A stretch of DNA of 64,000 nucleotides from Ferruginibacter albus (GTDB lineage Bacteria > Bacteroidota > Bacteroidia > Chitinophagales > Chitinophagaceae). Location: contig NZ_CP083388.1 in the NCBI RefSeq assembly GCF_020042285.1, forward strand, positions 186,001-250,000, given 5' to 3'. This document shows positions 46,618-61,349 of this stretch, piece by piece. The notes under the pieces are model-generated. The model searched no databases, was not told where the DNA came from, and saw only the letters and a list, made by a program, of their open reading frames with translations. How positions within the stretch are numbered: the stretch's first letter is position 1; every line of letters begins with the position of its first letter. The position numbers and the translations under genes are program-made.

Positions 46618-46689
46618 TAGTCCCAGCAAGAATCGAACTTGCATCAAAAGTTTAGGAAACTTCTATTCTATCCATTGAACTATGGGACC
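46618..46689 (-). tRNA. tRNA-Arg (anticodon CCT)
   Basis: 72 nt folding as a cloverleaf on the minus strand. The acceptor is GGTCCCA/TGGGACT with discriminator A (first pair G-U). The anticodon stem GAAGT/ACTTT encloses loop TTCCTAA, anticodon CCT. The T arm is GCAAG-TTCGATT-CTTGC. The CCA end is not encoded. It decodes AGG. Confidence 0.95.
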
Positions 46690-57280: not shown

Positions 57281-59938
57281 TTAGTTCTTTCTTGCCAATA
57301 CAACAGTATTCTTAAACTGTTTTGTTTTTCCTTGCAGGTTAAATATTTCTGTATAGATCACATACACGCCAACAGGGAGCTTCGCATTTTTATCATTCAA
57401 TCCATCCCAGCGATAAAATCCTTTTATACCGCAAAGTGCATTCTTTTGCAGGTAGCGTACCGGCCTTCCTGAAGCATCAAAAATTGTTATGTTGGCAACA
57501 TATCCCGGCTCAGGAAAATTATAATCGATCGTTGCAAAATCATCTTGCCCATCATTGTCAGGAGAAAATACAGATGGAGAAACAGTTATCTCACCTTGCA
57601 CCTGTTGATCTAAGCGGTATTGAGAATTTTTATAAGTAGGTGTTCCATATCCAACACTTGTGGCAGCAGAATGCCAGTTGCTCTGTTGTTGTGGTTGTGT
57701 AGTGTCATCAGAATTGATTCTTTCCAAAGCAACGCCTTCTGTATTATGGATCAGCGGAAATTGCCATTTGTCTGTATAATCCACTTCATCAATTATGGTT
57801 TGGTCTCCCGTGCAAAGTATCACATACCCCTTATCATCACTATAAGATGGCATACTCGGTACCGTTACAAAAGCGGTAGTATCTTTTACATAAAAATCTC
57901 TGCGTACAATAGCCGGATTAGATGTTGCCACTACATACTGTTGCGGTTGTAACAGCTGACTTGCACTGCTTAATTTTTGTAAACTTCCTATAGCTCCTGT
58001 TGTGCTGCTGCGATTGGCAATATAAACAGTGCTCAAATCAATTACTTTGTTACTGCGATTGTATATTTCAACATAATCAACACCCGAGGGTTGTAAATTG
58101 ATGGATGGAATAGGATTGTATAATATTTCATTTACCACGAGGTCAAAAGGCGCAACAGGAGAAGCAACTAATAAATTGGCTGAATTGGTAGCGCCGATCA
58201 GGTTGCCTAAGCAATCTGTAACATTGCTTGCTGTAATTGTATATTGAGTACCTGTAACCAATGGAGCACTTAATGTAATATTAACGGAATTGTATAACGG
58301 ACCAACTGCTGTTGCGGCACTAACAGTTAAATTATTAGTGAGTGTGTAATTAGAAATGGCAGAACCGGAGATACTATCCAATGATTCATCGAAGTTGATA
58401 ACAATGTGCGTTGGATCTGTAACAAAAGCGCTTAAAAGTTTTGGACCTGTTACATCTGCAGTTCCTCCGTTTACTGAATTAACGGTGCCGGGTGTTCCGC
58501 CACGAGGGTCGATGCTTGCTGTCCAATTGGAAGCACCTGAGCATGGGCTCGTAGTGTTGATCATTTCCAATGTCCAGCCGCCATCTTTCTTTGTATCATC
58601 TCCAAACCAGTCAGGAGAATAATTTACAGCGTGAATGGTTGCTCCATTATTGTCCACCAACGTAAGCAATTCACCTGAATTATTTAATGAAGGAAAACTG
58701 CTTACACCCAGTACATCGCCATAAGCCGACATATCTGCAACAGAACTTGTACCACATAAAATTACATAAGAGCCGGGTTGCAAAACAAAGGAAGTAAAAG
58801 CGCCGCTTTGTCCTGTAGCATCTTTAATTCGCCAGCCTTGCAGATTGATGGCAGAGGAAGAAGTATTCTTCAGTTCCACCCACTCTCTTTCAGGCAGGCT
58901 GACAGCAGGTGTTTCATCGCTCATGATCTCATCAATTACCACATCATATTTTTGAGCTGTATAAGGAGCAAAATAAGTGAAGCTGGTAGTTCCATTACTA
59001 ATTGCATTACCCGAAATATCTTTTACTCCGTTGATGGTAAGCGTATTGCTTACAGCATTTGCAAAACCGGCAGAAAAGGTTAAATGTACCAATGCGCTAT
59101 TGCTTACATCTAATGCGGCAGTTGATGGGGCGCCTAAATTATTATTGGCTGAATAATTATTGATGTCCTGTGCTGTAGTAGCATCTAACGCTTCATTAAA
59201 CAATACATCTACTGTTGATGGTAATGTAACAGCGGAGGATTGAATAAGCGGTGGGGTAACATCGGGCGTGTAAGGTTGCACTACTATGCTATCGAAATAA
59301 TGATTTTTACGTGGAGTAGCCGCGTTGCTTTCCGTAATTAATATGCCAAAGAAAGAAGAGGTAGTATAAGTAGCATCCACTGCAGAGCCTTCGCTGCTGT
59401 AATTGGTACCACCGGTCATGTCACGATATAATATCCATTGATTGTTGGCATCCCGTACTACTTTAATGCGGATCAGGTTATTACTGGAACTTGATACTTC
59501 GTTATTTAATCCATCAATTAAACGGGTTGTATCATTTGCACCTGTGCTACCTTTTTTAAATAAACAGATTTCTTTTTGAGTACCGCCGATGCGTACAAAG
59601 TAACCTGAAGTGGCGCTCGCCGTTAGATCGCTTGCAGAAGCAATTAAATAAACATCTACGTAATTGGCGCTGCTAACGGAGAATTTAAGATTTACGAAAA
59701 AACTCCATTCGGCAGTAGTAGCTAAAGTATTGGCAGTACTTAAATAGTATTTAATAGAGCTTGCGCCCACAGCATTGCTTTGCAGTTGCGATGATGTGTT
59801 TACGATGAAGCTGTCGGTATTACCAATCCAGGTGGGATTATTGGTAAAGTCGCCATCGGTAAAAGTTTCTGAAAATTGTGCAGACCCGGTTAGCACTGAA
59901 AATAATAACGAAAGGCAGAAAATCAATTTTTTCCTCAT
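57281..59938 (-). CDS. Lamin-tail-domain protein with T9SS C-terminal sorting domain
   Basis: The start taken is the ATG at 59936-59938 (MRKKLIFCLSLLFSVLTGSA), a clear signal peptide. About 885 residues. An N-terminal laminin-G-like region runs to about residue 225. An alternating series of Ig-like (Big_5-type) and two lamin-tail domains follows: IDEIMSDETPAVSLPEREWV near 338 and LVVNEILYNPIP near 600. It ends in a CHU_C-type domain (VSPSVFSPDNDGQDDFATID). It is probably a type IX-secreted surface or matrix protein. Confidence 0.85.
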   Translation of the reverse strand: MRKKLIFCLSLLFSVLTGSAQFSETFTDGDFTNNPTWIGNTDSFIVNTSSQLQSNAVGASSIKYYLSTANTLATTAEWSFFVNLKFSVSSANYVDVYLIASASDLTASATSGYFVRIGGTQKEICLFKKGSTGANDTTRLIDGLNNEVSSSSNNLIRIKVVRDANNQWILYRDMTGGTNYSSEGSAVDATYTTSSFFGILITESNAATPRKNHYFDSIVVQPYTPDVTPPLIQSSAVTLPSTVDVLFNEALDATTAQDINNYSANNNLGAPSTAALDVSNSALVHLTFSAGFANAVSNTLTINGVKDISGNAISNGTTSFTYFAPYTAQKYDVVIDEIMSDETPAVSLPEREWVELKNTSSSAINLQGWRIKDATGQSGAFTSFVLQPGSYVILCGTSSVADMSAYGDVLGVSSFPSLNNSGELLTLVDNNGATIHAVNYSPDWFGDDTKKDGGWTLEMINTTSPCSGASNWTASIDPRGGTPGTVNSVNGGTADVTGPKLLSAFVTDPTHIVINFDESLDSISGSAISNYTLTNNLTVSAATAVGPLYNSVNITLSAPLVTGTQYTITASNVTDCLGNLIGATNSANLLVASPVAPFDLVVNEILYNPIPSINLQPSGVDYVEIYNRSNKVIDLSTVYIANRSSTTGAIGSLQKLSSASQLLQPQQYVVATSNPAIVRRDFYVKDTTAFVTVPSMPSYSDDKGYVILCTGDQTIIDEVDYTDKWQFPLIHNTEGVALERINSDDTTQPQQQSNWHSAATSVGYGTPTYKNSQYRLDQQVQGEITVSPSVFSPDNDGQDDFATIDYNFPEPGYVANITIFDASGRPVRYLQKNALCGIKGFYRWDGLNDKNAKLPVGVYVIYTEIFNLQGKTKQFKNTVVLARKN

Positions 59939-60049
59939 AAATAGCAAATCTTGTTTTTTAAAGATAATGACTTTATATAATACTCAGTTCATTGTTTACC
60001 TGCTTTGTGATAAGTTGCTATTGTTCAATATAAAAATACGTGATGACGG

Positions 60050-60137
60050 GCTGCGGGATGTAAGCGGAAAGCCCGCTGAAGCTAAGTGTGTGGGCTATGT
60101 GGCGGACTTGTAGCGTACAACCCGAACCACTGATGAA
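60050..60137 (+). repeat. Dispersed GC-rich repeat, copy 2
   Basis: It begins GCTGCGGGATGTAAGCGGAA, contains GGACTTGTAGCGTACAACCC and ends near ACTGATGAA. It matches copy 1 (39260-39358, opposite strand) over nearly its whole length. It is non-coding and GC-rich and lies between the lamin-tail gene and the asd control region. Confidence 0.8.
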
Positions 60138-60205: not shown

Positions 60206-60213
60206 TACATTTG
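60206..60213 (+). promoter_or_regulatory. -7 promoter box of the asd attenuator region
   Basis: TACATTTG fits TAnnTTTG and ends eight bases before the first ATG of the leader peptide at 60222. No -33 box at proper spacing is obvious. Confidence 0.5.
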
Positions 60214-60221
60214 CGCCCACA

Positions 60222-60278
60222 ATGATGAACAAGAAACATACAAAGACCACCAAGACGTTTTCCCAAAAGGAAGGTTAA
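60222..60278 (+). CDS. Lys/Thr-rich leader peptide upstream of asd
   Basis: 18 codons, MMNKKHTKTTKTFSQKEG and a TAA stop (60276-60278). Five are Lys and four are Thr, with the control cluster TKTTKT at 60240-60257. Lys and Thr are end products of the pathway that asd serves, the composition expected of an attenuation leader such as thrL. A promoter -7 box sits just upstream, and a terminator plus competing segment follow. It is too short for routine gene calling. The regulatory role is inferred from arrangement. Confidence 0.75.
   Translation: MMNKKHTKTTKTFSQKEG
60268..60276 (+). promoter_or_regulatory. Antiterminator arm of the asd attenuator
   Basis: AGGAAGGTT at 60268-60276 can pair with AGCCTTCCT at 60308-60316 (nine pairs, one G-U). 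That captures the 5' arm of the terminator. It overlaps the last leader codons and the stop, so a ribosome finishing the leader would mask it. Confidence 0.65.
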
Positions 60279-60306
60279 TGGTATTTGTTTGTTCTACAAT
60301 ATTCAC

Positions 60307-60337
60307 AAGCCTTCCTCAACGGGAAGGCTTATTTTTT
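60307..60337 (+). terminator. Attenuator terminator in the asd leader
   Basis: A perfect 9-bp stem AAGCCTTCC/GGAAGGCTT, a 6-nt loop TCAACG, and ATTTTTT. It lies between the promoter and asd, 20 bases before the asd ATG, so it can only act as a conditional terminator. Confidence 0.88.
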
Positions 60338-60356
60338 AAATTTAAAAACAAATAAA

Positions 60357-61349
60357 ATGAAAGTTGCCGTAGTAGGCGCTACCGGCTTGGTAGGCAGCAA
60401 AATGTTGCAGGTTTTAGCAGAAAGAAATTTTCCTGTGGATGAATTAATTCCTGTTGCTTCTGAAAAATCAATAGGTAAAGAAGTGGAATTTAAAGGAAAG
60501 AAATATAAAGTAGTTGGCTTTGAAGATGCAATTAAAGCAAAGCCTGCTGTAGCTATATTTTCTGCAGGTGGCAGTACCTCGTTAGAGCTGGCACCAAAAT
60601 TTGCTGAAGCAGGTATTACGGTTATCGATAACTCATCGGCATGGCGCATGGACCCTACTAAAAAATTAGTAGTGCCGGAAGTAAATGCCAATGTATTGAC
60701 GAAAGACGATAAGATCATTGCAAATCCTAACTGCTCTACCATCCAAATGGTATTGGTGTTAAAACCTTTGCACGAAAAATATAAAATTAAAAGAGTAGTG
60801 GTTTCTACTTACCAAAGTGTTACCGGTACAGGCGTTAAAGCCGTTGATCAATTATTTAATGAACGTAAAGGCGTGGAAGGTGAAATGGCTTACAAATACC
60901 AGATTGATCTGAATGTAATTCCGCAGATCGATGTGTTTACAGAAAACGGTTACACGAAAGAAGAAATGAAGATGATCAAAGAAACCAACAAGATCATTGG
61001 CGATAATTCTATTAAAGTAACGGCAACGACTGTACGCATTCCTGTTATTGGCGGGCATAGCGAAAGTTTGAACATTGAATTTGAAAATGATTTTGATGTA
61101 GAAGAAGTAAAAGCATTATTAAGCAAAGCTCCTGGATTGGTGTTGCAGGATGATATAGCGAATGCTGTTTATCCAATGCCATTAACAGCGCATGAAAAAG
61201 ATGAGACCTTTGTTGGTCGCATCCGCAGAGATGAATCACAAGCGAATACATTGAACTGCTGGGTGGTGAGCGATAACTTGCGTAAAGGCGCTGCTACTAA
61301 TGCTATACAAATTGCAGAGTATTTGCAAAGTAAAGGTTTGTTGAATTAG
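60357..61349 (+). CDS. asd: Aspartate-semialdehyde dehydrogenase
   Basis: The start taken is the ATG at 60357 (MKVAVVGATGLVGS); the longer frame from 60285 runs through the attenuator. 330 residues. An N-terminal NADP-binding motif VGATGLVG (6-13) is followed by IFSAGGSTSLELA, the catalytic NPNCST with Cys126, a TGTGVKAVDQLFNER segment, and RIPVIGGHSESLNIEF with the catalytic His. It converts aspartyl phosphate to aspartate semialdehyde, the branch point to Lys, Thr, Met and diaminopimelate. Regulated by the upstream attenuator; a terminator follows. Confidence 0.97.
   Translation: MKVAVVGATGLVGSKMLQVLAERNFPVDELIPVASEKSIGKEVEFKGKKYKVVGFEDAIKAKPAVAIFSAGGSTSLELAPKFAEAGITVIDNSSAWRMDPTKKLVVPEVNANVLTKDDKIIANPNCSTIQMVLVLKPLHEKYKIKRVVVSTYQSVTGTGVKAVDQLFNERKGVEGEMAYKYQIDLNVIPQIDVFTENGYTKEEMKMIKETNKIIGDNSIKVTATTVRIPVIGGHSESLNIEFENDFDVEEVKALLSKAPGLVLQDDIANAVYPMPLTAHEKDETFVGRIRRDESQANTLNCWVVSDNLRKGAATNAIQIAEYLQSKGLLN

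Follow-up and report, generated by a model that had tools for sequence, protein, structure and literature searches.

Sequence comparison points to a lysine-led, ribosome-mediated transcription attenuator before asd in Ferruginibacter albus and its relatives

Aspartate semialdehyde is the common intermediate in the synthesis of four amino acids, lysine, threonine, isoleucine and methionine. Attenuation by leader peptides has long been known, as in hisL of the his operon, and attenuators in bacteria were reportedly surveyed by Lopatovskaya and others in 2010; lysine is the classical riboswitch amino acid, the L-box RNA binding lysine itself without ribosome or codons. The region before the aspartate-semialdehyde dehydrogenase gene (asd) of Ferruginibacter albus carries a promoter-like box, a short open reading frame (ORF) rich in Lys and Thr codons and a terminator, which raises the question of whether this gene is regulated by a ribosome reading the codons of the pathway products. 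The conserved parts, the alternative pairings, the codon bias and the contrast between asd and dapA leaders, all established by comparison of sequences, lead to the reading that a ribosome-mediated transcription attenuator very probably precedes asd, the best reading being that the attenuation is led by Lys. The start site, the ribosome positions, the termination and the response to amino acids described below are deduced from these comparisons.

The window, i.e. the whole stretch of 64,000 nucleotides that was analysed, belongs to a genome of 3.76 Mb in a single contig. The regulated gene scores 430 bits against TIGR01296 (cut-off 324) and its best named matches are Chitinophagaceae proteins, several of them labelled Ferruginibacter, records of the genome itself being possibly excluded. 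The initial annotation had described a -7 box, an 18-codon Lys/Thr ORF, an antiterminator arm lying over the stop codon and a terminator with a T run, followed by asd, and direct reading found every one of these in its place (Table 1). The leader ORF (ATG ATG AAC AAG AAA CAT ACA AAG ACC ACC AAG ACG TTT TCC CAA AAG GAA GGT TAA) includes five Lys and four Thr codons, and the antiterminator arm overlaps the first base of its stop codon. The terminator (60307-60330) reads AAGCCTTCCT-CAAC-GGGAAGGCTT, with nine Watson-Crick pairs and one G-U; it is not that of the large upstream gene at 57281-59947, because that gene is on the minus strand, divergent from asd, and runs the opposite way. This neighbour encodes a large protein beginning ...FSETFTDGDFTNNPTWIG and, as judged by eye from the upstream DNA, seemingly also lies before asd in the attenuator-less relatives L084, L086, L096 and L104-L106. 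Just upstream of the asd promoter, a weak match to the Flavo-1 RNA was observed at 60045-60131 on the plus strand, with 27.2 bits against a cut-off of 42 and an E of 0.00064 when 261 bases were searched. Across the window, a tRNA at 46618-46689 on the minus strand is the only Rfam match to reach gathering score.

Table 1. Features of the putative asd attenuator, in positions of the window
Feature	Position	Strand	Basis or remark
-7 promoter box TACATTTG	60206..60213	+	Read directly; Bacteroidota sigma-A type; in register with leader ATG in 65 loci
Predicted transcription start	60218	+	From the box position in F. psychrophilum; 5' UTR about 4 nt
Leader peptide ORF MMNKKHTKTTKTFSQKEG*	60222..60278	+	Read directly; aligned with 64 relatives
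Control codons Lys Lys His Thr Lys Thr Thr Lys Thr	60231..60257	+	Codon conservation, composition test, asd/dapA contrast
Codon helix strand 1 (ACAAAGACCA)	60240..60249	+	Own-versus-other permutation 0/5000, 65 loci
Segment 2, antiterminator arm AGGAAGGTT	60268..60276	+	9 pairs with 60308-60316; permutation 0/5000, 65 loci
Codon helix strand 1' (TGGTATTTGT)	60279..60288	+	Between leader stop and terminator
Segment 3, terminator 5' arm, common to antiterminator	60307..60316	+	
Segment 4, terminator 3' arm	60321..60330	+	
T run of intrinsic terminator, ATTTTTT	60331..60337	+	
asd, aspartate-semialdehyde dehydrogenase, regulated gene	60357..61349	+	TIGR01296 and NF011456 over cut-off (NCBIfam)

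Within the window alone, a 165 nt region folds with a z-score of -2.33, 6 of 200 shuffles being equally good. The leader exceeds base-shuffled codons in Lys+Thr (p 0.015) and in Lys+Thr+Ile+Met (p 0.010), and the antiterminator arm has a p of 0.005 against shuffled leaders. Pattern scans over 3 kb gave 2 terminator-like sites where 2.7 were expected and 6 sigma-70-like promoters where 9.8 were expected, so that such scans by themselves would not reveal the element. The case for it rests on conservation.

Regions upstream of asd came from 88 genomes in the genus and from 80 named loci, and 154 of these 168 loci were distinct after 14 duplicates were dropped. The best terminator within 450 nt was sought at each locus, which yielded 70 distinct regions above the score limit, 78 with none and 6 that were too short; the limit loses some true elements, such as L002, which is matched by the covariance model described below. 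A leader was defined by a rule blind to codon content, namely a -7 box (TAnnTTTG with at most one mismatch), an ATG within 22 nt and an ORF ending before the terminator. A short ORF starting 4-9 nt after the -7 box was found in 65 of the 70 distinct terminator-bearing regions, while the identical rule, applied as a control to 154 other terminators of these loci, found one. Among the five regions without a leader by the rule (L023, L043, L083, L085 and L117), L023, L083 and L085 match the covariance model. The leader ORFs of the 65 loci have 14-22 codons, and an intrinsic terminator, beginning up to about 250 nt before asd, stands between leader and structural gene, as in leader-peptide attenuators.

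A second promoter element in register, TTG exactly 20 nt upstream of the -7 box, is present in 52 of the 65 loci and absent from the window, which has TTATA at that stretch. The spacing from box to ATG is 8 nt in the window. In Flavobacterium psychrophilum the box spans -12 to -5 (PMC9723704). On that pattern transcription would begin 0-5 nt upstream of the leader's ATG, 4 nt in the case of the window, and the asd leader ORF is thus predicted to be almost leaderless. Messages of this class make up 5.5% of mRNAs in F. psychrophilum (PMC9723704), and about 3.7% of 5' UTRs in Bacteroides thetaiotaomicron are under 10 nt (PMC7366714).

The alternative pairings were scored locus by locus, as RNAalifold on a MAFFT alignment of the 65 sequences recovered the terminator core alone (5 pairs) because the terminators are slipped by a base. 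The motif GGRAGG occurs in 42 of the 65 leaders, within the ORF, at its stop or further on, with 15 cases in frame 0, 12 in frame 1 and 15 in frame 2, so that it reads as a peptide end GR, EG or GKV among others, or lies past the stop; its occurrence in all three frames indicates that the antiterminator arm is kept as RNA and not as peptide. Taken singly, segment 2 reaches p 0.05 against shuffles in 46 of 65 loci, and its fit to segment 3 is 18.2 for the own partner and 16.3 when partners are swapped (0/5000 permutations over 65 loci; own-versus-swapped permutations, here and below, leave the relatedness between loci in place). Eight loci carry a variant terminator arm; in five of them (L041, L042, L076, L094, L098) this arm is a better match to segment 2 than the consensus arm, and in L040, L065 and L100 it is no better. 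In L065 (Flavihumibacter), the terminator has GGCCCCGAC..GTCGGGGC in place of GCCTTCC..GGAAGGC and the leader carries GGGGCT, possibly a three-way change, on which the swap test is neutral. The initial annotation had proposed that the GGAAGG of the leader and the 3' arm of the terminator compete for the same CCTTCC. Both pairings and their coordinated change are seen across the 65 loci, consistent with an antiterminator that would exclude the terminator by occupying its 5' arm, three of the eight variant arms being neutral.

The control codons also pair with the stretch between the stop codon and the terminator (for example ACATACAAA with TTTGTATGT in L065). The own fit of this codon helix is 17.1 against 15.6 when swapped (0/5000 permutations, 65 loci); the swap test gives 1/5000 for the 25 loci without CATACA and 56/5000 for the 40 loci with it, and the signal is weak in per-locus shuffles, 22 of 65 loci reaching p 0.05. 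Since the codon helix encloses segment 2, it excludes the antiterminator, and vice versa, except as a pseudoknot. The classical 1:2 helix, between the codons just past the stall point and segment 2, looks good in the window, and was dropped because 913 of 2000 permutations reach the observed value.

Among 61 leaders measured, 57 have segment 2 at a distance of 11-18 nt from the base at which aligned codon 7 begins, and segment 2 finishes anywhere from 9 nt before the last base of the stop codon to 12 nt beyond it. A ribosome reaches about 12 nt ahead of its A site, close to this distance. Halted at the control codons, it would thus leave segment 2 more or less free, and at the stop it would cover the segment, as expected of an attenuator. 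When the stalled ribosome was masked in the nascent RNA, the antiterminator probability exceeded 0.5 in 61 of 65 loci, against 48 of 65 unmasked (0.97 and 0.41, respectively, in the window); the corresponding value with the ribosome at the stop is 0 by construction. At full-length equilibrium the terminator remains the prevailing fold even under a stalled ribosome (mean 0.75), and since it thus wins on energy, the switch must be kinetic, decided while the RNA emerges.

Codons were compared in the 60 of 65 leaders that could be aligned on the K-H-T-K block, the five unanchored leaders being left out of this comparison only. Lys occupies aligned codons 3, 6 and 7 in 45, 50 and 47 of the 60 leaders, with both AAA and AAG in use, and Thr occupies codons 2 and 5 in 47 and 33, its commonest replacement being Ile (11 and 12). 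His, an amino acid outside the pathway, is found at codon 1 in 53 of the 60, a conservation that we attribute to the codon helix. In the Lys-Lys pair, AAG usually precedes AAA (AAG in 41 of 50 at codon 6, AAA in 39 of 47 at codon 7), and aligned codon 0 is AAA in 54 of 60 leaders.

Between the second codon and the stall point, Lys, Thr, Ile and Met together account for 539 of 727 codons (74%) in the 65 leaders, compared with 46% in base shuffles, 144/615 (23%) and 241/673 (36%) in the other two frames and 55/377 (15%) in the later codons; the end of the counted region being set by the Lys block, Lys is slightly favoured in this test. Over the same stretch of codons, Asn, Arg and Gln fall below expectation (ratios of 0.47, 0.39 and 0.40, respectively). 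At single loci, an excess at p 0.05 is reached by 41 of 65 for the four amino acids and by 32 of 65 for Lys+Thr. Three of the 65 leaders have fewer than three Lys codons and lean to Thr and Ile, and the weighting of the signals therefore shifts. A short ORF, predicted to be translated and made up largely of codons for the pathway products, is what would be expected of an attenuator. The conservation of leader codons and alternative pairing among Chitinophagaceae relatives, on which the initial annotation had staked its proposal, is thus borne out, with coordinated change, at the 65 loci.

The distribution of the element was examined with a covariance model built from the 65 leaders. At E 0.01 it matches 215 out of a sample of 294 genomes of the family, the weak end including hisG leaders and plain terminators; with the limit at 1e-5, a hand count gives about 181 genomes. 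A closer reading of 13 genomes, selected because they had several matches, placed all 17 matches below 1e-5 before asd (12) or dapA (5), while the 13 weaker matches read there comprise six hisG leaders and seven that are neither. Outside the family, at 1e-4, the model matches 1 of 149 genomes sampled in the order and 15 of 295 sampled in the class; the eight other-family loci that were read all lie before asd, judged by its N-terminal sequence, and their leaders have 4-7 Lys and 0-1 Thr codons (e.g. MKMICKNKKHDKKLFHSGKGN, MMIKKIKCAKKLFR). Among the asd loci themselves, 37 of 88 from the genus and 39 of 80 named ones match, including Terrimonas, Flavihumibacter, Lacibacter, Longitalea, Limnovirga and Sediminibacterium roseum. 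The other 51 and 41, some of which are truncated at contig ends, give no match to the model, and every locus labelled Mucilaginibacter, Pedobacter or Chitinophaga is among the named ones without it. The genome of the window has 24 matches at E up to 10, namely asd, hisG and 22 weaker ones, six of which were read and look like ordinary terminators.

dapA encodes the first step of the lysine branch, and a second strong copy of the element precedes it in some genomes; TIGR00674 was over its cut-off in the three leader-bearing dapA genes tested. Both leaders were read in 15 genomes of four genera, pairs which are not independent of each other (the dapA leader of G131 was left out, its asd leader being unread). 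Their core codons are alike in Lys (68/179 in asd, 65/170 in dapA), while Thr falls from 28 in asd to 14 in dapA and Met from 20 to 0; Ile, with 7 in asd and 15 in dapA, goes opposite to the prediction from the pathway. Genome by genome, the dapA leader has fewer Thr codons in 12, an equal number in three and more in none, and fewer Lys codons in 4 of 15, more in two and an equal number in nine; one genus has no Thr at all in its dapA cores, which read KKYSSKK or KKYACKK. As the dapA copies were found with a model trained on asd, such a search would hide differences between the two kinds of leader and not create them. Except for Ile, the codons of the sequenced leaders follow what the product of each gene feeds. 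The dapA gene of the window's own genome has a terminator and no leader by the rule. Leaders were seen in four of the 30 dapA upstream regions collected (L190 and L289-L317), which is not a rate as they come mostly from genomes picked for at least two matches, and eight further dapA loci gave no model match.

The initial annotation had read the leader as one of Lys and Thr. On the sequence evidence Lys is the constant signal, because it is kept in the dapA copies and in the asd leaders of other families while Thr falls; Thr proved variable, and Ile and Met codons also take part. The element is therefore best described as a lysine attenuator widened by the Chitinophagaceae to other products.

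By the same kind of evidence, the attenuator is not confined to asd, being found before dapA in some genera and, in a His version, before hisG. The hisG gene of the window's own genome (L207, G000:C1:2552700-2552815, minus strand) is preceded by the leader MIQNTHTHHHHTLANG and a terminator, a GTAAGC over the leader stop appearing by eye complementary to the terminator arm, and similar His leaders precede hisG in G063, G093 and six further loci. thrA has a Thr/Ile-rich frame of its own in L198 (G000:C1:1107000-1109400, within the 200 nt before position 613), as well as in L199, L201, L202, L204 and L205. In the window's own genome this frame ends ...GTTITTSTTTR, and its stop codon lies inside a strong hairpin (ACAACCCG..GGGTTGT); a similar stretch comes next, and a T run is absent. 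L198, L199 and L201 gave no Rfam match up to E 0.5. This may be an attenuator of a different kind, Rho-dependent or translational.

The following mechanism is proposed for asd. RNA polymerase would start a few bases before the leader ATG, and a ribosome would load on the almost leaderless message. When charged Lys-tRNA (in Chitinophagaceae also Thr-, Met- or Ile-tRNA) is scarce, the ribosome would halt on the control codons, the last of which lies mostly 11-18 nt before segment 2, and would stop just short of that segment, also breaking the helix between the control codons and the stretch after the stop. Segment 2 (GGAAGG) could then pair with segment 3 (CCTTCC), no terminator would form and asd would be transcribed. 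Under good supply, a ribosome at the stop would cover segment 2, leaving segments 3 and 4 to form the terminator, and transcription would end before asd. In the absence of translation, the codon helix, which encloses segment 2, should favour termination. The central step, the freeing of GGAAGG by a stalled ribosome so that it captures CCTTCC and blocks the asd terminator, had been put forward in the initial annotation, and it agrees with the control codons, the pairings and their coordinated change.

Other readings of the locus have to be weighed. The peptide itself, through KHTKRTKK, might halt the ribosome by nascent-peptide arrest with no sensing of starvation, and the good conservation of the KHTK..KK motif in the family, including a His that lies outside the pathway, speaks for it; the eight other-family loci, however, lack the motif and remain rich in Lys before asd, Thr, Ile and Met codons are frequent where positions of the motif are replaced and are over-used, and the dapA copies retain Lys and shed Thr and Met codons, which together make this reading improbable. 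A -7 box, an ORF and a terminator that lies up to about 250 nt before asd would also suit a small-protein gene or small RNA with an ordinary terminator, asd being transcribed from its own downstream promoter. Such a unit would have to account for an ORF of only 14-22 codons whose C-terminal part crosses segment 2 in different frames, for a segment 2 fitted to its own terminator, and for strong model matches which, where the gene was read, all lie before asd or dapA (18/18, 17/17 below E 1e-5 and 10/10), and it is accordingly thought very improbable.

A metabolite-binding riboswitch, whether the lysine L-box or a novel aptamer, with an accidental ORF would fit a premature terminator, and lysine genes are classically under L-box control (PMC1262725). 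Against it, the L-box (RF00168) has no match in the window's genome and none over the cut-off in a sample of 247 genomes from the class (a single match fell short of it), against 4 positives in 14 control genomes, no Rfam family reaches its cut-off at the locus and the consensus fold of the 65 sequences holds the terminator core alone; we regard such a riboswitch as highly improbable. Among the leader families, Thr_leader, His_leader and Phe_leader did not reach gathering score at the locus, the sole match being to Phe_leader (23.8 bits on the plus strand of the asd leader region, cut-off 55), and the T-box was absent among the matches up to E 5. The initial annotation had further suggested that a second frame, opened by an ATG at 60278 that overlaps the leader stop (TAATG), could couple translation of the leader to asd. 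This frame, of 25 codons, stops a single base short of the asd ATG; however, only 8 of the 65 loci have an ATG in that place over the leader stop and none of the other seven frames reaches asd, so that the suggestion falls away as barely credible.

Among known systems, the proposed attenuator resembles the thr attenuator of Escherichia coli (thrL, with Thr/Ile codons), a system described in PMC12925634, in its end-product codons, its alternative antiterminator, its intrinsic terminator and its place in the aspartate-family pathway. It differs in that the thr attenuator controls thrABC and senses Thr and Ile, whereas Lys is the constant signal of the asd leader, and in that thrA has, in the window's genus, a separate Thr/Ile-rich frame without a T run. 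With the his operon attenuator it shares the logic, the amino acid and the gene being others, and the genome itself has a His version before hisG. The L-box is alike in being RNA control of lysine genes, in other phyla (PMC1262725), and differs in that it is not over the cut-off in the 247 class genomes and that the asd leader would use a ribosome and codons. The same paper assigns lysine to riboswitch control and His, Thr and Phe to attenuators, and PMC12925634 gives thr attenuation for Vibrio natriegens and E. coli and another control for the lysine genes. Leader-peptide attenuators have been proposed for amino-acid operons of F. psychrophilum, of the same phylum and mechanism type (PMC9723704), and asd may be one of the genes concerned. 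Short ORFs reminiscent of leader peptides have been noted in long 5' UTRs of B. thetaiotaomicron (PMC7366714), and leader genes in general are treated in PMC4833913. Searches of open-licence PMC papers brought up no description of a lysine or asd leader-peptide attenuator, and lysine is, as far as could be seen, a new signal for such attenuators.

Taken as one joint proposal, part of the Bacteroidia may control the trunk of the lysine and aspartate-family pathway by ribosome-read Lys codons, a role that a lysine riboswitch has in other phyla. An ancestral Lys leader before asd, common to several families, would have gained Thr, Met and Ile codons in Chitinophagaceae, giving one peptide that reads all four products, and would have been copied to dapA with Thr and Met shed; its traits would be a near-leaderless start, a codon helix enclosing the antiterminator arm and termination as the default without translation. 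We consider this combination evenly poised between being right and wrong. If confirmed, it would add a lysine-sensing attenuator family with a small regulon (asd and dapA) in a phylum with little-known RNA control, and would offer a natural experiment in which the paired leaders of one genome differ in their codons as the gene products predict. A leader read from a near-leaderless message would, moreover, be a testable case of a class that is rare in the mapped Bacteroidota.
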